The notes below the pieces were generated by a model. The model saw only the letters and a list, made by a program, of their open reading frames with translations. It made no database searches and had not been told where the DNA came from. DNA of 44,814 nt, from the IMG/VR virus record IMGVR_UViG_3300031566_000091, positions 1-44,814 of that record; one strand, written 5' to 3'. The stretch comes from a virus. Position numbers and translations under genes: made by a program. Positions 480-40,247 of the stretch are shown here, one piece after another. Within the stretch, counting starts at the first letter, position 1. Each line of letters starts with the position of its first letter.

Positions 480-3400
480 CTATTTATTTGGAAACTTTTG
501 TTTATAAGCTTCTGTTAATTTTTTTATTTCTTGTTCTAAAACACCACTAATAAATGATTTTTGATCTTGTGCTATCTTCGATGGTTTTTTATACATTCCA
601 CTACCAATATAATTTGAATTGGCATAATAATTAAAATCACTAGCATTTTGAATAGCATCAATAGGCCCATCTAGAGATTGTCCACCAATAAACTTAATTT
701 GTAATGTTAAATTTGCAATCATGGGCTGCATACCAAACCCTTCTGGATTCATGTCCCAAGGAGAATCTTGATAATCAATAGTAACACTTTCAATAATAAT
801 TTTACTATAATAAAAATCACCAACCCTTAAAATACAAATTGGTTGTCTACCAAATACAGAATTTCTACTAATCGCATTACCATTTTTATCTGGAATATCA
901 TATCTTTTAGCTGAACCCTGTCTAGTACATTGACTCATGAAAGTTAATCTTTTATGAAAATCTTCGGGTGTTTGACTATGAAAAAAGGGATTAAATTGAT
1001 TTTCTGTAATTGAAGCAAATCCATTCCATGTTTTTGTTCTTTTTGTTTTTTCATTAAATACACAATCAGAAACTTTACCCTTTTTCAGATATTCATTATA
1101 TAAATTTTCAATTTCACGTCTTTTTTCTTTAATTGTATTAAGATCATCTTGACTTGTTTGTGTTGGTTTATCCTCAATAACAACATTATTTCTTGCAAAA
1201 CCAATATAAGCAACCCTATCTAATTTTACATCTCTCTTTTGTATTCCTTCACTTGTTTCACCAATATCAACACCACCACTTTCACCAATCGAACCATCTT
1301 TAGTATATTCAATTGTGATATTTAAATCTTCAAAACTTTTTTCAAAAATAGCACTTAGTCTTCTTTTTAAAAATGCAATTGTTGCATCTGCTCTTCTTAA
1401 TCCAAGCTCTTTATTATAATTTTCACCCCCAAGTTTGGATGCTCTACCATATATAATAATTTTAAATAATTTTCTATTATTTTCATTACCAAAAAAATCT
1501 TTAAGTTTATTATTTAAAACACAATCACCAGCTTGATCATATTGTGTAAAACTTGGTGGTAGCAATGATTTATTTAATATATATGTACCAATTTGACTAC
1601 CATCAACAACACCCTCTGGAATAAAAATTTCTTTATTTAAACCAAAACTTGTACCATCAACAGAAGCTAATCCATCAATAATTTCATATGTATTATCTAA
1701 ATATATAGCATCAATAATTGAATTTAAATTATCCTCAACTCTTGGAACAGCATTAGGAAATGCAATTTTCATTTCTGGTGGTGGAGTAACATCAGGATCT
1801 TCCTCGGTCTTACCATTCTTAATATTGTTAATTTCATCTTCCAATTGTTGAATTTTTTCTTGTGGATTATCAACAGGATATGAAGGTGTATAAGGATCTC
1901 CACCAAATGTAAAAAATTCAGAAACTTCTTTTTGATTATTATTAGTATTATGAAACTGTTTTAGATGATGAGGATAATCCATTAATAAACTAAAACTCAA
2001 TGTTCCAGTTCTTTCAGAATTCATATAAGTATAAATAGGTTCACTTCTTCCAACCATAACAGTTGATTCATACTTAGCAATATGTGTTTCACTAAAATTG
2101 AGATTATATGGGGGAAACCACATTATTCTCCCATTAAAAGGACCTACTTCACAAATAGGAATTTCTGAACCATATTCATCATCAATTATTCCAACATCTC
2201 CTTTACTAATTACTCTTAATGCAAGATTTTCAATTGAAAACATTAAATTTTTATTATCAACAACACCATTTTTTGATAGTGTTGGATGTATTCTCGGCAT
2301 TACAGATTTGGATATTACAGAATTTTCATTTCCACCATAAACAATATTTCCATCAAATCTTATTGCTTTTGAATATCTATCATATTGATCTAATATAGAA
2401 TGTTGTCTTACACCTGTTTTATTATCAGTACCCATCGCAATAGCATAAAGACTATCATTAGCTTGCCATAATGGTGAACCATTAAAACCAACAACATTTT
2501 TATCATCATCAACAAATGCTTTTTTTGTTATATCACCAACTCTACCCCCCGTAGCATTAATTAAATTTCTAGTATATTCCAATAATCCAGATTTAATATT
2601 AAATTTACCATAATCAAAATTATTAACTATATCCGAATAATTATTATCAACCTGATCAGTATCACCACGAAGTTGAGTTAAATTTTCATTAACTTCATTT
2701 GAAATACCACTTTTTCCCCAAATAATTTGATTATTAATATCATTTTCATTTGAATCACTATTTGTTGGAATCCAAGCATTTCTATCTTGTGTATTTAATG
2801 TAAAAGTTTCATGTTGTTTAACAGTTCCTAAATTATTAATTATATAATCTTTATTTGGGGCATATTCTTGAATATTATCCTTTGCCAAATATGACATTGC
2901 CATTTCTTGATTTGCAGGAATTTCATCAAAAAAAGATGCATTAAAGAAAATATATGGATTTTCTGTTGCATTACTAAAATTAAAAAATGGTTTATATGAA
3001 GTATTAATAATTGCACCCGATTGTATGTTAACAATATTATTCCTTGTTTTTATTGGGGTTTTATTGTTGTCACCAATATCAATTAATACTGGACTATCAC
3101 TTTTATATAGATTATTATTTAATAGTTGAAATAAAAAATTTAATTGTCCACTTCCTGTTGCTTTCAAATAATCATCATTTGTTGAAGAACTTGAAAATGG
3201 ATATTCATTAGATGAATTTACATTAAAAACTACTTTATCTAATAAATTATTAAATTTATCAGTAAAAGTGGTTGCTTTAACATCTGTAATTTTTAAATTT
3301 ATGTTTTTAGTAAATAATTTAGTATCCTTACTACCATCAAATAAATTCGATAATTTAATGGTTGGTAAATTTTGTTGTGAAATGTGTGATTTTGCATTAT

Positions 3401-4194: not shown

Positions 4195-6702
4195 TTATTG
4201 ATTACTCTTACCACCTCTTGTATCTTGTTGAATACTAGCAGCTAATCTTGAATTATATGTTTTATTAAATATTTTATTTCCATCAAGTTCTAATGTTATA
4301 TTATTATTTAATGCAACATCTTTATTATCAAATTCAATTTTTAAAGGTTTTTTTAATAAATTAGATAATTCAGAAAACATACCACTACCACTAATATTTG
4401 CTTTAGATATTGATTGAATAGCATTTGCAATTGCAATATAATCTTCTTTATTTCCACTCATTACAGTATTAATTTGTTTAAAACCTTCACCTACTTGTGC
4501 AATTGCACCAGCATGTTTTGCAATTGTTGACATTACATTAGAAAAAACAAATAATCCAACAGCTCCAGCAGTAAAACCTAACATTGCTAATGATAATGCA
4601 CCAACACCAATAGCCAAATTTTGCATATCATCACCAGCACCTTTACCTGATTCAACTAATTTTGATAACCCTTCGGCCATGTTACCAATACCTGTTGTAG
4701 CTAAATAAATACCACCACCAACCATAACAACAGCAGCACCTAATGCTAATAAACCCCATGCTCCTGCTTGTGCTGTTGTTGCTACTAATCCTAAACCAAT
4801 GGCAGCCGCTGGGAATGTTATAGCTAACGTTGTTGCAATAGTTTCTAATGATTTGGCCTGTTCTGGTGTTAATTTACTCATTGAATCAGCCAATTTACTG
4901 ATTCCTTCAGCAGCCATTCCAATACCAGCACCAATACCAACAGCAGCTAAACCAACACCCGCACCCTTTCCCAAAGCTGCACCACCAGCACCTTTAATGG
5001 CTCTACCACCACCTCTTGATCTAGGTTTATATCCTCGTCCATCACCTCCACCACTGCTAAATAATCCCCCAACTCCTTTGAGTAATGATTTACCAGCACT
5101 TAATAAACTTGGAATGAAACCTTTAAATAAAAAACCAACTGTCATAAACATACCTGCAGCTTTTAAAAGTGTGGGATTATTTTTTGCCATTTCACCAATC
5201 CATTTTGTGAATTTTTCAACATATGGTCTAACAGTTGTTAAAACTTGATTTACTCCTTGAAGCATAGGTAATAATGTTGCTTTTAATTCTTCAATTGTTG
5301 CTTTAAATGCTTCATCGAATGTTTGTGAATTTTTTGCTCTTTCTTCAAGTGATTTTTTTTCTGATTCAAATGCATTTGCTTGTGTTGATGTAAGTGTTGC
5401 AACATCTTTCATATGTCCAGCAATCTGAACTTGAAATTTTCCTGATTGATTATCAAATATAGCAGCGCCTTCAATTAATTTTTTTTGTTCTTCAGATAAA
5501 CCCATTCCTTGCATTTGTTTTCGCATTTTTTGAATATCTGCCATTCTTAATGCTTGGTTGGTTAATTCTCCAGATTGCATTCCTAGTGATTTTTCAACTG
5601 AGGCTAATCTATCTCTATCTGCTGGACTAATAAATTTTTCAAAAGTACCATCACTCATTTTTCTAAATGTAACAACCCCCTTGGTCATTTCATTTATTTT
5701 TTCAGTAAATTTTGCTGGATCATTACGAGATAAGAATAATAATTCAAAAGGATCTGTTTTAGCAAATTCACCACCCATTACTTGTAATTGTGCTGCTAGG
5801 CCAATAGCACCCTCTAATGTTCTTGCTGTTTCTACTGAATTTAATGCTTGATTCATATCAATTTTCATTTTTTCAGAATACATAGCCATCTGAGCATATC
5901 CTTTAACACCTTGCTGAAAATTGAGTTTATTTAATGATTTAAAATTATCACTAACATTTTTTAAAACTTTGGTTGTATTTACACCCATTCTCTCACTAGT
6001 ATCAACAACACCTTGAACATATTGCATTGTTGATTTAGCATCGTAACCCATTAATTCAAATTGAGCACCCAATCTTGTAGCCTGTTCAACACCAAGACCA
6101 GTTCCCTTACCAATAGCATAAATATCCTGAACCATACTTGCAGATAAAACTCTCGCTCGTCCTGTTTCATCAGCATATCCTTGCATTATGTTTTGGACAT
6201 CTCCTAAATCACCACCTAATCTGGCAACATAAGCAGCAGAACCTTCAAAAGATGCTCTCATCATGTCAGCTTTTAATCCTGACATTCCTAAATTAAGTAT
6301 TGTGCTTTTAATTACTTTATCTGATTGCATTAAAAATTGCCAACCAGATTGTAATAGTTTATTTGTATTTTCTAATAATTTCGTAATTTGTTCTCTTCCA
6401 GTTTTCTCACCATACACACTTGATGTAATATTTGATTGTTTTTTTTCAATTACACCAAGTTGATCTTTTTGTTTTTTTGTTAAATTAATTGAATTACTTT
6501 CATAATCATTTTTTAATTGTAAATGTTCATTTTCAATTATTTGATTATTTGTAATAATTTCAGATAAAACTTTTTGTTTTTCAATTAATTCAAGATTACC
6601 AATATTTGTTCTTAACTTTTCTCTTAATCCTTGATTTTCTTTATCTAATAATTTAAGAAGTTCTATTCTTTGTTGTACATCACCAGTATTTTGTTTTGCC
6701 AT
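4195..6702 (-). CDS. Tail tape measure protein
   Basis: An 835-aa protein expected to fill the tail tube and set tail length (T4 gp29 role). The first ~110 residues are charged and coiled-coil-like. Residues about 140-430 carry the helical pattern typical of phage tape measures, for example LGMSGLKADMMRASFEGSAA, LGAQFELMGYDAKST and QVMGGEFAKTDPFELLFLS. A Gly/Arg/Ser-rich linker (about 550-575) leads into several long hydrophobic Gly/Ala segments (about 510-730, for example GLLALGAAVVMVGGGIYLA), which resemble the membrane-active segments of other tape measures. The C-terminus is polar. A late-type motif lies 23 nt upstream. The preceding gp26-like gene and 57-aa ORF fit the usual order of tail chaperone genes before the tape measure. 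Confidence 0.82.
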   Translation of the reverse strand: MAKQNTGDVQQRIELLKLLDKENQGLREKLRTNIGNLELIEKQKVLSEIITNNQIIENEHLQLKNDYESNSINLTKKQKDQLGVIEKKQSNITSSVYGEKTGREQITKLLENTNKLLQSGWQFLMQSDKVIKSTILNLGMSGLKADMMRASFEGSAAYVARLGGDLGDVQNIMQGYADETGRARVLSASMVQDIYAIGKGTGLGVEQATRLGAQFELMGYDAKSTMQYVQGVVDTSERMGVNTTKVLKNVSDNFKSLNKLNFQQGVKGYAQMAMYSEKMKIDMNQALNSVETARTLEGAIGLAAQLQVMGGEFAKTDPFELLFLSRNDPAKFTEKINEMTKGVVTFRKMSDGTFEKFISPADRDRLASVEKSLGMQSGELTNQALRMADIQKMRKQMQGMGLSEEQKKLIEGAAIFDNQSGKFQVQIAGHMKDVATLTSTQANAFESEKKSLEERAKNSQTFDEAFKATIEELKATLLPMLQGVNQVLTTVRPYVEKFTKWIGEMAKNNPTLLKAAGMFMTVGFLFKGFIPSLLSAGKSLLKGVGGLFSSGGGDGRGYKPRSRGGGRAIKGAGGAALGKGAGVGLAAVGIGAGIGMAAEGISKLADSMSKLTPEQAKSLETIATTLAITFPAAAIGLGLVATTAQAGAWGLLALGAAVVMVGGGIYLATTGIGNMAEGLSKLVESGKGAGDDMQNLAIGVGALSLAMLGFTAGAVGLFVFSNVMSTIAKHAGAIAQVGEGFKQINTVMSGNKEDYIAIANAIQSISKANISGSGMFSELSNLLKKPLKIEFDNKDVALNNNITLELDGNKIFNKTYNSRLAASIQQDTRGGKSNQ

Positions 6703-6754: not shown

Positions 6755-6928
6755 TTATTTCAGTTTTCCGTATTTTCTATTTAATTCTTCTTCTTGTTTT
6801 TTTATTTCTTCATTTTCTTTTTCTAATAAAAATAAATAGTTTCTTCTTCTATAAACTGGCAATCTTTCAACATAACTTGCTTCGAATCTAGCATGTTTAG
6901 TGAGGATATATATCTCCTCATTAATCAT
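6755..6928 (-). CDS. 57-aa tail assembly protein, possibly also made as a -1 frameshift extension of the gp26-like protein
   Basis: A short gene with ATG at 6928 encoding 57 residues. It begins MINEEIYILTKHARFEASYV, continues ERLPVYRRRNYLFLLEKE, and ends in a charged helix. The LPxYxRRxYLxLLEKE block resembles the small ORF that often follows gp26-like baseplate proteins in T4-type phages (recognised from memory, not searched). Its reading frame is open upstream of the ATG for 11 codons, back through a run of eight T's at the end of the gp26-like gene. A -1 slip there would therefore give a gp26-like/57-aa fusion. Its location directly before the tape measure gene is the position of the lambda GT extension. 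Confidence 0.6.
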   Translation of the reverse strand: MINEEIYILTKHARFEASYVERLPVYRRRNYLFLLEKENEEIKKQEEELNRKYGKLK

Positions 6929-6945
6929 TTTTTTATAATCACTTG

Positions 6946-7848
6946 CTAGATGTCTGGGGAAAAAAAATCCAGACCGATTGATAACGAGGCGTTAAATTTA
7001 AAGCCATCACTTGTTTTGAATTCATATGACATATCAACATCTGGTGAGACTTCTATGATTTTTTTTCTTATTGTATAAGCATCTAATGCTGGCATTGCAT
7101 CAACAAATCTTTCAATATATGATCTGTCCATATTATCATTTATTGATATAATGCTTGATTTTAATTTCATTGTACTATATCTTGAAAAATCTTCATTATA
7201 TGCTTCTTTTATTGATTCTGAATTTTTAAATATTTGATTATCATCACCAGAAGTTAATAAACGAAATTTAACTGTTTTTTTTCTCATTGGTATTTCAACT
7301 GAAAAATGACCATTTGCATCAGGTTGTTCTGTTACTTCCTTATATTTTAATTTTAATAAATCAACAGTTTCTTTAAAAACCGAACCATTTCTAGGATCAG
7401 TAACTTGAACAGTATAATTTGTACCATAGCTAGATGTACGAAGAAAAAGAATTATAGAATTTCTATCACCACTTAATAATTCTTCTGGATGAATTCCTTT
7501 AGTTTTTATTTTTCTTTTTAATAATAAGTCTAAAACTCTACCACTATCAATTAATGATGGTGTTGTCAATAAATCTTCATCTTCTGAGGTCATATATTCA
7601 ACATTAACTTCAGATATTCCATGAGAATAAAATAATCCTTTTGATGGTAAAGATACTATTTCATATGATGTCATTAAATCTGGATCAGTTTCTTTAGACA
7701 TTATATTTTCAAAATTTTGTGGTTTTGGTATTGATGCTGTTACAACAGTTTTTTTATTTTCATCAGTTACAACATTTTGTTGTTCTTTATATTTTTTTAA
7801 TACATCCGAAATGTTTTCTTTTTGTGGTATCTGTTCGTTTGAATCCAT
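6946..7848 (-). CDS. 26: gp26-like baseplate / tail assembly protein
   Basis: A 300-aa protein. After a polar 55-residue leader comes the pattern of the T4 base plate family that includes gp26: YEIVSLPSKGLFY (about 62-74), VEYMTSEDEDLLTTPSLI (about 83-100), ELLSGDRNSIILFLRTSSYG (about 123-142), and near the end FVDAMPALDAYTIRKKI, then SPDVDMSYEF and a terminal LDFFSP. T4-type relatives end with a similar FFWP-like motif. It precedes the tape measure, separated only by the 57-aa ORF. The codons for the terminal FF lie in a T8 run that could act as a -1 slippery site. A late-type motif lies 33 nt upstream. It may be a hub component, a tape-measure chaperone, or both. Confidence 0.62.
   Translation of the reverse strand: MDSNEQIPQKENISDVLKKYKEQQNVVTDENKKTVVTASIPKPQNFENIMSKETDPDLMTSYEIVSLPSKGLFYSHGISEVNVEYMTSEDEDLLTTPSLIDSGRVLDLLLKRKIKTKGIHPEELLSGDRNSIILFLRTSSYGTNYTVQVTDPRNGSVFKETVDLLKLKYKEVTEQPDANGHFSVEIPMRKKTVKFRLLTSGDDNQIFKNSESIKEAYNEDFSRYSTMKLKSSIISINDNMDRSYIERFVDAMPALDAYTIRKKIIEVSPDVDMSYEFKTSDGFKFNASLSIGLDFFSPDI
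6957..6970 (-). promoter_or_regulatory. Candidate -1 ribosomal frameshift site (T8 run)
   Basis: On the coding strand the 0-frame reads GAT TTT TTT TCC, a T-TTT-TTT heptamer four codons before the TAG at 6948-6946. Shifting back one base gives TTC CCC AGA CAT CTA GCA and so on, with no stop, straight into the ATG of the 57-aa ORF. No stimulatory structure was identified. The conserved FF codons alone could explain the T run. Confidence 0.4.
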
Positions 7849-35310: not shown

Positions 35311-35355
35311 AAAAGATATTATTTGATTATATTATATGACCAAATAATATCTTTT
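35311..35355. terminator. Bidirectional 15-bp hairpin terminator overlapping the Mom/GIY-YIG stop
   Basis: AAAAGATATTATTTG (35311-35325) pairs perfectly with CAAATAATATCTTTT (35341-35355) across a 15-nt loop, then a T-rich run on the plus side. The last codons and the stop (35319-35321) of the minus-strand gene lie in the left arm. Confidence 0.7.
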
Positions 35356-36791
35356 CTTTTTTTATTTTTTGAACACCATCTAGAAATTGTTGATTGATTA
35401 ACATTTTCATATTTAGAAGCTTCTGCAGTTGATTCATATATTTTAATAATTTTATTTTCATTAGCATTTATTTTATAAACCATTTTACAAATAACTTCTT
35501 TTTGTTTGTTACTCAAACCCTGTTCAATTTTTGTTTTACTAATTTTATTTTTAGTTTCTTCATCTCGTGATCTACCTTTCCAATATTTTGATGATATTTC
35601 ACTTAAATATTTTCTTTCCTCGTCTGTTTTCAATTTTCCATATTTTTTTGCTTCTTCACTACCAGCAGAATAAATTCTTTTTTCTACCCATTCTTTAGAT
35701 TGTTTGATATTTAGATGGGATTTCGACATTTTATCTAATGTTTCCAATGCTGCAATAGCATTTCTACCACCTGCTTCAATATTATAACCAAAATTTTTAT
35801 CTGTTGTATTATATTCTAATATATATCTTATTTCTTTACTATTTAATTCATCAATTGTCTCTCCATTATCAATTACTTTAAATTCAAAATTTCCCCAACC
35901 ATATTTCTTAATTGAATTATTTAAATAATCATTTCCTTGACCATTTTTATAATCAGAAATTCTATCATTAATTCCTCTTATTGTTTGACCGATATATTTT
36001 TTATTATTAATTTTATTTGTTATCATATATATTATACCAATAATATCTCTGTCTTTCTTAGGATAAGGTTGAATATAATTTTCAAACGCTTTTAAATATT
36101 TCTGATTTTTCATTTTATTATCCATAAAATGAAAATATCTTCTTTTTCTATATTGATTAACAAATTGTGCATTTGGGTAATGTTTCAGGATAATATCTTT
36201 TTTCATTGTGCCTAATTTATTTCTTACCCATCTACTACCTCTTAATTTACCATCAATATATACTGAAAATCTTTTACTTTCTTTATTATGATGATAATTT
36301 CCAGTCATCATACCAATATAAGTCCAATTTAATGATTGGTATATTGTACCAATTTCACCAGCAGCAGGATCTACTGTTGCAGTAATAATTCTATATTGAG
36401 TATTATTTTTTATCCATTTACATGCTTTTGATATAAAAAAAGATGCTGAATTTTTTGGTGTCCACCATAAACAAACACCACGACTCAAAAGCAATAATTT
36501 TCCTGAAAAACAATATTTATCCCAAACACCAGTATTTTCTGCATAATCATTACTAAATACTAATACACCACCAAGATATTGTTTATCATTAACATTGAAG
36601 TAAAGTCCAAAACAATATTTAACAATAAATGGCATTGATTTTAACCATTCATATTCAATAATTATTTTTGTTGCAATACTTTTATCAATTATTTTAATCT
36701 CAGTATTTTTTAAACTAATATCATTTAAATCAAAATCAATATTTTCTAATTGTGATTTTTCTTTTCTTATTTTATATTGATAAGCTTCCAT
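35319..36791 (-). CDS. Fusion of Mom-like DNA-modification acyltransferase and GIY-YIG nuclease
   Basis: A 490-aa protein with two complete parts. Residues 1-248 fit the Mom/GNAT family: FGLYFNVNDKQYLGGVLVFS (about 61-80), LLLSRGVCLWWTPKNSASFF, and a D141PAAGEIGTIY151 block where Mom keeps an Asp and a Tyr ten residues apart, ending in YIQPYPKK like natural Mom C-termini. Residues 249-490 are a GIY-YIG homing endonuclease: GIIYMITN (252-259), YIGQT (266-270), an Arg at 272 or 277, Glu320 and GYNIEAGG, then a basic region and an IENR1-like repeat (IKIYESTAEASKYENVNQST). Mom of phage Mu modifies adenine to block restriction. The fusion is read-through in one frame with no stop or frameshift. 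Whether it is a functional pair or an endonuclease that landed at the gene end is unknown. Confidence 0.7.
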   Translation of the reverse strand: MEAYQYKIRKEKSQLENIDFDLNDISLKNTEIKIIDKSIATKIIIEYEWLKSMPFIVKYCFGLYFNVNDKQYLGGVLVFSNDYAENTGVWDKYCFSGKLLLLSRGVCLWWTPKNSASFFISKACKWIKNNTQYRIITATVDPAAGEIGTIYQSLNWTYIGMMTGNYHHNKESKRFSVYIDGKLRGSRWVRNKLGTMKKDIILKHYPNAQFVNQYRKRRYFHFMDNKMKNQKYLKAFENYIQPYPKKDRDIIGIIYMITNKINNKKYIGQTIRGINDRISDYKNGQGNDYLNNSIKKYGWGNFEFKVIDNGETIDELNSKEIRYILEYNTTDKNFGYNIEAGGRNAIAALETLDKMSKSHLNIKQSKEWVEKRIYSAGSEEAKKYGKLKTDEERKYLSEISSKYWKGRSRDEETKNKISKTKIEQGLSNKQKEVICKMVYKINANENKIIKIYESTAEASKYENVNQSTISRWCSKNKKRKDIIWSYNIIK

Positions 36792-38582: not shown

Positions 38583-40247
38583 TTACTGTAGGTCACCAAT
38601 TCCGAATGTTTGAAGTCCATCGCAGAAGATACGACCATAGTAACGGTTAAGAACCATTTTCTTTGCGTAACGGGTTATAATACCACGTATTGGTGTAAAA
38701 TCAAATGGATTGTACATTACAGGAGTAAGCTGCATAGGCACGTATGGCGCATAAATGTAGCCGGTCTCTAAGATTGAAGTACCTTTATGTCCTATTAACA
38801 CAGTGTTAGCAGGTGCATATGGATCACGATATACAATATATCTTCCACTTAAAGTACCAATTTTCTCAATACCCATGTTATATTTATCTTGCTCTGGAGA
38901 AGCATTAGAAACATGGAAATACTCAAGGTCATCAAATACTGCACTTACTTCAGGAGATACAACTACCCAAGAAGCACCACCCCTAAGAGTTGCTTTATGG
39001 ATTTGAGCAGAAATCTGATTGATTTTAGTAACCAATGTTTGATTCCAGTCTTTTTGTACACCATAATAAGTATTAGTACCTTTTCTAAGACCATTATAGT
39101 CCCAACGAGCAGTCCAAGCAGCACCTCTACGAAGGTCACGTAAAATTTCACGGTCAACTTCAGCAGCCATTTGCTCAGAAAGCAATGCAGTTAATTCAGC
39201 TTCTGCGTCAATGTTATGGAAAGCACTAACGTCTTGAGCCAATTCAGGAGTCCAAACTGCTCTCATTTTACGAGTTTCAACAGAAACTGTAACTTGGTCA
39301 AGAACGAAACTAACTTCAGCCATTCTTGAATCTTCTTCCATATCACTATAAATGTTATATGAAAAAGTAAATGCAGGAGTTGAAGCAGCACTCAATGCTT
39401 GATAACCATTAGTACCAGCATAAGAAAGATCTACCATTAATTCTAATTGACCAGTTTTACTAACAATTGCTTGTCCGTATTTTTGAACTTTTACGTTAAA
39501 TGGTATAGAACTACCTGAAATAATGTTTGCACTAGTATAAGGAGCAGCAGCAGTGAAATTAACATCTGAATAAAGCTTTAAACTAGCAAGGAATGTTTCA
39601 GTGTCCATTGGAGCACCAGCAGGTCCAATTAATTTACCTTCATATGTTGTACTAAATCCACTAAGGATAATTCTAAGAATAGAATCCCCAGTAACATAAG
39701 CAACAGGTTGATTGGCAGTACCAGTAATAACAGTAATATCACCTTTTGAACGGTCAAATAATGAAGTTCCTTCTTCACCATATTCAGTTGCATAAAATGC
39801 ATCATATAATGAACGAGTTTCAAATTGAGTTCTAGCTGATGAAGCTAAAGTTGCTGCATTTTGATATGCACCATTTGGTGATGTATGATCAGTTCCAGCA
39901 GGACTTACTCTTTCAGAAGTCTTTGGATTGATGTAATATAATTTACCAATTGGTAAATTCAGAGCCTGTACAGATACGATGTCATTTGCTAACAATTTAG
40001 CAAATACTCTACGGATAACAGGGAAAGCCACTGTTTCAAATTGTCCGCTAGATGCAGAATCTGTAGATTCATTTATCATATAAGATAATTGGTTCTCAAA
40101 TAATTGAGCACAGTTTTCTCTTACGTTTCCAGTAAGACCTTCTAATAGACCAATTTTATCCCAACGATTAGTTGTTATTTCTCTTTGTTCACGAAGTTGT
40201 TTTAATCCAATATTACCAACTTCAGCACTTTCAGTTAAAAATCCCAT
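38583..40247 (-). CDS. 23: Major capsid protein (gp23)
   Basis: A 554-aa T4 gp23-type protein. The N-terminal region LFENQLSYMINESTDSASSG QFETVAFPVIRRVFAKLLAN and IVSVQALNLPIGKLYYINPK matches the family well. The C-terminal part reads SGRYIVYRDPYAPANTVLIG and YAPYVPMQLTPVMYNPFDFT, then RGIITRYAKKMVLNRYYGRI, also typical. An I58-N59-E60/S61 sequence fits the gp21-type (I/L)-x-E cleavage rule near the position used in T4 gp23. The codon use is less AT-biased than the neighbouring genes, as expected for the most abundant virion protein. It is transcribed with the scaffold gene from the motif at 42003. Confidence 0.92.
   Translation of the reverse strand: MGFLTESAEVGNIGLKQLREQREITTNRWDKIGLLEGLTGNVRENCAQLFENQLSYMINESTDSASSGQFETVAFPVIRRVFAKLLANDIVSVQALNLPIGKLYYINPKTSERVSPAGTDHTSPNGAYQNAATLASSARTQFETRSLYDAFYATEYGEEGTSLFDRSKGDITVITGTANQPVAYVTGDSILRIILSGFSTTYEGKLIGPAGAPMDTETFLASLKLYSDVNFTAAAPYTSANIISGSSIPFNVKVQKYGQAIVSKTGQLELMVDLSYAGTNGYQALSAASTPAFTFSYNIYSDMEEDSRMAEVSFVLDQVTVSVETRKMRAVWTPELAQDVSAFHNIDAEAELTALLSEQMAAEVDREILRDLRRGAAWTARWDYNGLRKGTNTYYGVQKDWNQTLVTKINQISAQIHKATLRGGASWVVVSPEVSAVFDDLEYFHVSNASPEQDKYNMGIEKIGTLSGRYIVYRDPYAPANTVLIGHKGTSILETGYIYAPYVPMQLTPVMYNPFDFTPIRGIITRYAKKMVLNRYYGRIFCDGLQTFGIGDLQ

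Follow-up and report, generated by a model that had tools for sequence, protein, structure and literature searches.

Frameshifting in the tail assembly chaperone of phage lambda yields gpG and the longer gpGT (Levin 1993; Xu 2004; reviewed in PMC5009743). In the lambda model, the tape measure is coated by the short form while a few long forms recruit the tube, and G-T frameshifting is regarded as conserved in long-tailed phages "except T4" (PMC5009743). For T4 itself, PMC3004832 counts gp26 and gp51 among the hub assembly chaperones. PMC10885494 credits Vladimirov et al. 2022 with identifying the tail assembly chaperone (TAC) genes of T4-like phages, and PMC12846349 cites the same study for poly-T −1 signals within T4-like TAC-N genes. 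A preliminary description of the locus analyzed here had supposed that such an arrangement was not described for T4-type gp26, a view that these two papers contradict.

Described systems resemble the present locus to different degrees. In the TACs of Vandenendeviridae and Andersonviridae, as presented in the passages of PMC12846349 considered here, a poly-T −1 site ends TAC-N, an open −1 frame runs through an "intergenic" ORF and the tape measure lies downstream; compared by description, these systems differ in belonging to other phage families and in having an invariant GTTTTT site, and those passages make no mention of +1 relatives. Bacillus phage 0305phi8-36 possesses a short/long paralogue pair, gp143/gp144, that replaces the frameshift as in T4, but this two-gene tail chaperonin operates without a frameshift and belongs to a different phage lineage (PMC2147016). 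Judged by its sequence, our locus is very probably a further case of the known frameshifted tail assembly chaperones.

The gp26-like gene and its −1 frame

We analyzed the full 44,814 nt of IMG/VR virus record IMGVR_UViG_3300031566_000091 (the window), in which the locus occupies the minus strand. The gp26-like gene (6946–7848) encodes a 300-aa protein that matches PF12322 (T4_baseplate, the gp26/gp51 family) with 35.8 bits against a curated cut-off of 24.5 (E 8.6e-9), and phrog_150 "baseplate hub" with an E-value of 7.4e-8. The gene ends GAT TTT TTT TCC CCA GAC ATC TAG, with a T8 run at 6960–6967 (A8 on the plus strand) and the frame-0 stop codon TAG at 6946–6948. Within the run, T-TTT-TTT stands in frame 0 at 6967–6961 and has the X-XXY-YYZ form of the heptamers of bacterial −1 programmed ribosomal frameshifting. 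Read in the −1 frame after a slip, the sequence TTC CCC AGA CAT CTA GCA AGT GAT TAT AAA AAA ATG opens a C-terminal extension of 68 codons (6758–6961), and a separately called 57-aa ORF (6755–6928) is the part of this extension 3′ of its internal ATG. The preliminary description had placed the run four sense codons ahead of the stop, had followed an open −1 frame across 11 codons to the start codon of the 57-aa ORF and had estimated a fusion of about 360 aa. All of its coordinates and frames are exact in the sequence, and the computed fusion comes to 364 aa (296 + 68), with GLDFF-FPRH at its predicted junction.

Directly downstream lies an 835-aa ORF (4195–6702, minus strand), which is presumed to be the tape measure from its position and length; its similarity to annotated tape measures by BLAST is weak only (E 0.016). 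In most loci of the window's clade a long ORF likewise begins +38 to +64 nt further on, and the phages immuto and LIS04 show the order tube, gp26-like gene, small ORF or extension, annotated tape measure. Unlike most clade members, locus L003 has no long ORF start within about 65 nt past the extension (from about 4125). The suggested analogy to lambda G/GT holds for this layout of a short product, a frameshifted long product and a long ORF directly downstream, whereas the window protein belongs to PF12322 and not to lambda G, its gene has U-UUU-UUU as the proposed slip site, and in many relatives the site is of the +1 type instead.

We consider it very likely that the gp26-like gene is a tail assembly chaperone gene decoded in two ways by a −1 slip at T8. 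The slippage itself, its efficiency, its ribosomal nature and a chaperone role on the tape measure are what we infer from this arrangement. Most ribosomes would stay in frame 0 and make the 300-aa short form (TAC-N), while a minority would slip one base back on U-UUU-UUU and continue through the 57-aa ORF region to give the 364-aa long form (TAC-NC) with a helical C-terminal domain. On the model of lambda gpG/gpGT, the tape measure encoded downstream might be coated by many copies of the short form and few of the long one, whose tail might recruit tube subunits or the baseplate hub.

AlphaFold predicted the short form with a mean pLDDT of 84.8. The extension alone was predicted as a helical hairpin with helices at residues 4–25, 29–34 and 37–66 (mean pLDDT 88.7). 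A fold search of the PDB with the short form placed the HK97 tail assembly chaperone (2OB9) at the top with a probability of 0.44, which is not significant (E 1.4; TM 0.49 over the target), and the other listed matches had probabilities of at most 0.06; a PDB sequence search with the short-form alignment as query returned no match.

Conservation of the proposed slip site and competing readings

All 16 first-round relatives in IMG/VR (52–100% identity) retain a run of T8 or T9 with a frame-0 stop close by, and in each the −1 frame is open and encodes a shared protein, FFFPxxLAGEYKKMVNEEIYILTKHAKFQADYIENLPIYRRRHFL... A T7 core is invariant in the clade alignment, and every clade member presents T-TTT-TTT, T-TTT-TTC or both. 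Two further scans gave 160 loci, to which deposited phages were added, and removal of duplicates left 148 loci. An extension profile located the extension in an alternate frame in all 148 (129 in +1, 19 in −1 and none in frame 0), a count that includes one locus, L021, which scored 6 bits on the profile and was assigned from its open frame and site. In each of the 148, no stop interrupts the alternate frame between the extension and the hydrophobic codon pair with which the gp26 domain ends. The openness of the −1 frame exceeds chance, because the 16 relatives keep both the T8/T9 run and the open frame and all 148 loci have an alternate-frame extension.

The preliminary description had cautioned that the T-run might be incidental to a conserved Phe-Phe and that a stretch of 11 open codons can arise by chance. 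The first concern is countered by codon usage: the site codons are TTT TTT in 14 of 14 clade members, an invariance that exceeds codon bias, whereas both TTT and TTC occur at six further positions with invariant Phe. As for the second, the stretch from the frame-0 stop to the ATG shows the substitution pattern of −1-frame codons, and purifying selection acts on the −1 frame upstream of that ATG. Pairwise comparison in the −1 frame gave 132 synonymous differences over 149 site units and 60 nonsynonymous differences over 553, for a ratio of about 0.12. Neither of the patterns that had been named as evidence against a frameshift appeared, since no clade relative has a −1-frame stop on the way from the run to the small ORF, and no synonymous change breaks the TTT TTT pair. 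A conserved downstream RNA structure, a common though non-universal stimulator, was sought in 14 sequences and not found (consensus −3 kcal/mol, no real covariation). An inverted repeat, GTCTGG...CCAGAC, could form a hairpin that encloses the T8 run of the window (6952–6974, minus strand); it was set aside as a candidate, being shared in the alignment with L001 and absent from the other relatives.

The same fusion could be produced by the polymerase rather than the ribosome, if transcriptional slippage on T8/T9 left some mRNAs one U longer (or two shorter). Runs of 8–9 T, which occur throughout the window's clade, come close to the length that lets RNA polymerases slip. The window and L012, however, have only T8, and in relatives with TTT TTC, TTC TTT TGG or TTT CTT TGG the runs are too short, such that only codon-level slippage is plausible there. 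We regard transcriptional slippage as unlikely at this locus.

Less probable still, and quite doubtful in our estimation, is that the 57-aa ORF forms a small gene in its own right, started at its ATG by re-initiation or coupling, the T-run then being incidental to the conserved Phe-Phe. Databases do annotate such ORFs on their own, and 12 of the 14 clade members retain the internal ATG, which would permit a degree of separate initiation. Among deposited phages, the −1 frame is closed in the cyanophage S-SCSM1, which has ATGs close to the overlap, and TAATG occurs in Cygsa01. Against a separate gene stand the amino-acid constraint on the −1-frame codons ahead of the ATG and the loss of that ATG in two clade members (ATA in L030 and ATT in L014). 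Predicted helix 1 of the extension also begins 8–9 residues ahead of the Met of the 57-aa ORF. In the wider set, the first 16 extension codons include ATG, GTG or TTG in only 22 of 125 +1-type loci (ATG in 11), and the extension therefore cannot generally be a separate gene. Overall, the 57-aa ORF is probably not a gene of its own.

That a homopolymer sequencing or assembly error split one true ORF is scarcely credible: some technologies are error-prone at such runs, but the split recurs at the same codons in 148 non-redundant loci and in isolates with non-homopolymer sites, in two directions, and the window differs from its T9 relatives by a T-to-C substitution of equal length (T8C4 versus T9C3) with no indel.

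Probable frameshift sites of both directions in the gp26 family

A programmed −1 frameshift at the end of the gp26-like gene remains our preferred reading for the window, and the comparison with the wider family indicates how far such an arrangement extends. The preliminary description is supported in placing a frameshift layout ahead of the presumed tape measure; this layout is no peculiarity of one phage, since almost every sampled PF12322 gene from beyond the T4 group shares it, often with a +1 site. Sites of the form TTT TTT TGG or TTT TTT TAC account for 114 of the 129 +1 loci. Where the second codon of a +1-type site encodes Phe, it is TTC in 1 of 123 cases, versus about 24% elsewhere in the same genes (binomial 6e-14, uncorrected for kinship). 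A −2 shift in place of +1 is formally possible in relatives with a T7 run but is disfavoured by the TTC TTT TGG sites, because Phe-tRNA, we reason, could not re-pair two bases back there.

Isolates represent both directions. The −1 frame is open at T-TTT-TTC or T-TTT-TTT in Synechococcus phage S-RIM8, Pseudomonas phage PA5oct, E. coli phage 121Q, Klebsiella phage RaK2, Agrobacterium phage Atu_ph07, Xanthomonas phage XacN1 and the Vibrio phages 2.275 and Bakedbeans, and RM378, SP-15 and LIS04 are +1 users among the deposited phages. In 121Q the site reads CAT TTT TTC GAG TAA. S-SCSM1, Cygsa01 and Slicko01 are unclear fits. In Alishewanella phage Slicko01 (L195), the gp26-like gene near 3220 showed neither the Phe-Phe site nor an alternate-frame extension; this phage may hold another solution to making a short and a long form.

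The extensions reached in the two directions are homologous. Profile alignment of the window's −1 extension with the +1-type extensions gave a probability of 97.8 and an E-value of 1.2e-12 (hhalign), and comparison of the +1-type extensions with those of the −1 jumbo phages gave 95.8 and 7e-9. In a maximum-likelihood tree of the shared domain, the −1 clade of the window (support 100/99) lies beside the +1 loci L032 and L046 (100/97), inside a larger +1 group, with L032 as its nearest +1 relative. Well-supported branches force at least 3–4 changes of direction, although the long deep branches and arbitrary root of the tree make the count of changes and the ancestral state inexact. Two additional loci, L050 and L074, carry the extension in −1 at TTC TTT TTT CCC and TTC TTT TGG CCC; neither was placed on the tree, and they may be further direction changes.

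On these comparisons, one chaperone gene has probably switched its frameshift repeatedly between −1 and +1 while keeping the same Phe-Phe site and extension domain. What is conserved would be the leaky join and not its mechanism, with the gene pair 26/51 of T4 as a further route to a short/long pair. Repeated switching between −1 and +1 at a single site is possibly new, and specialists may find the breadth of frameshifting in the gp26 family new as well. The −1 and +1 sites form a natural series within one gene that is suited to testing how slip direction evolves.

T4 gp26 and gp51 in light of relatives with probable frameshifts

Both T4 proteins belong to PF12322, but the family domain reaches the end of gp26 and stops at residue 201 of gp51, such that residues 202–249 of gp51 constitute a C-terminal extension beyond the domain. 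The profile phrog_634, "baseplate hub assembly catalyst", is matched both by the −1 extension of S-RIM8 (2e-30) and by the C-terminal part of gp51 (1.2e-23). A direct comparison of the profile of all extensions with T4 gp51 gave an E-value of 0.064, with no separation from shuffled sequences. As that direct match is not significant, the link to gp51 rests on the shared PF12322 and phrog_150 assignments together with the phrog_634 bridge.

In these terms T4 gp26 resembles the short form, ending at the homologous Phe-Phe, and gp51 resembles the long form in combining the family domain with a C-terminal extension. The T4 short and long forms differ from those of the relatives in being two separate, divergently transcribed genes, and the end of T4 gene 26, GAG TTC TTT GAG TTA CTA TAA, has neither a slip site nor an extension frame. 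The window does not show the two-gene arrangement of T4, as a single PF12322 gene is present in the 44.8-kb record, which is possibly a genome fragment. T4 thus seems to divide between two genes the pair of products that its relatives would make from one.

Outside the T4 group, most of the sampled PF12322 genes appear to encode frameshifted short/long chaperones, which suggests that T4 is a derived exception within its own gp26 family. The "hub assembly catalyst" gp51 would gain a simple reading, and small ORFs annotated separately beside PF12322 genes would be chaperone tails, an assignment that would correct gene calls in many phages.

Two other structural genes of the window lie far from the chaperone-tape-measure block: the tail sheath (PF17482; 17216–19957, minus strand) and a T4-type major capsid protein Gp23 (PF07068, E 1.7e-71; 38583–40247, minus strand). 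Elsewhere on the minus strand, a 490-aa ORF (35319–36791) joins a Mom-family domain (PF25680, residues 31–245) and a GIY-YIG nuclease domain (PF01541, residues 252–330) in one frame.
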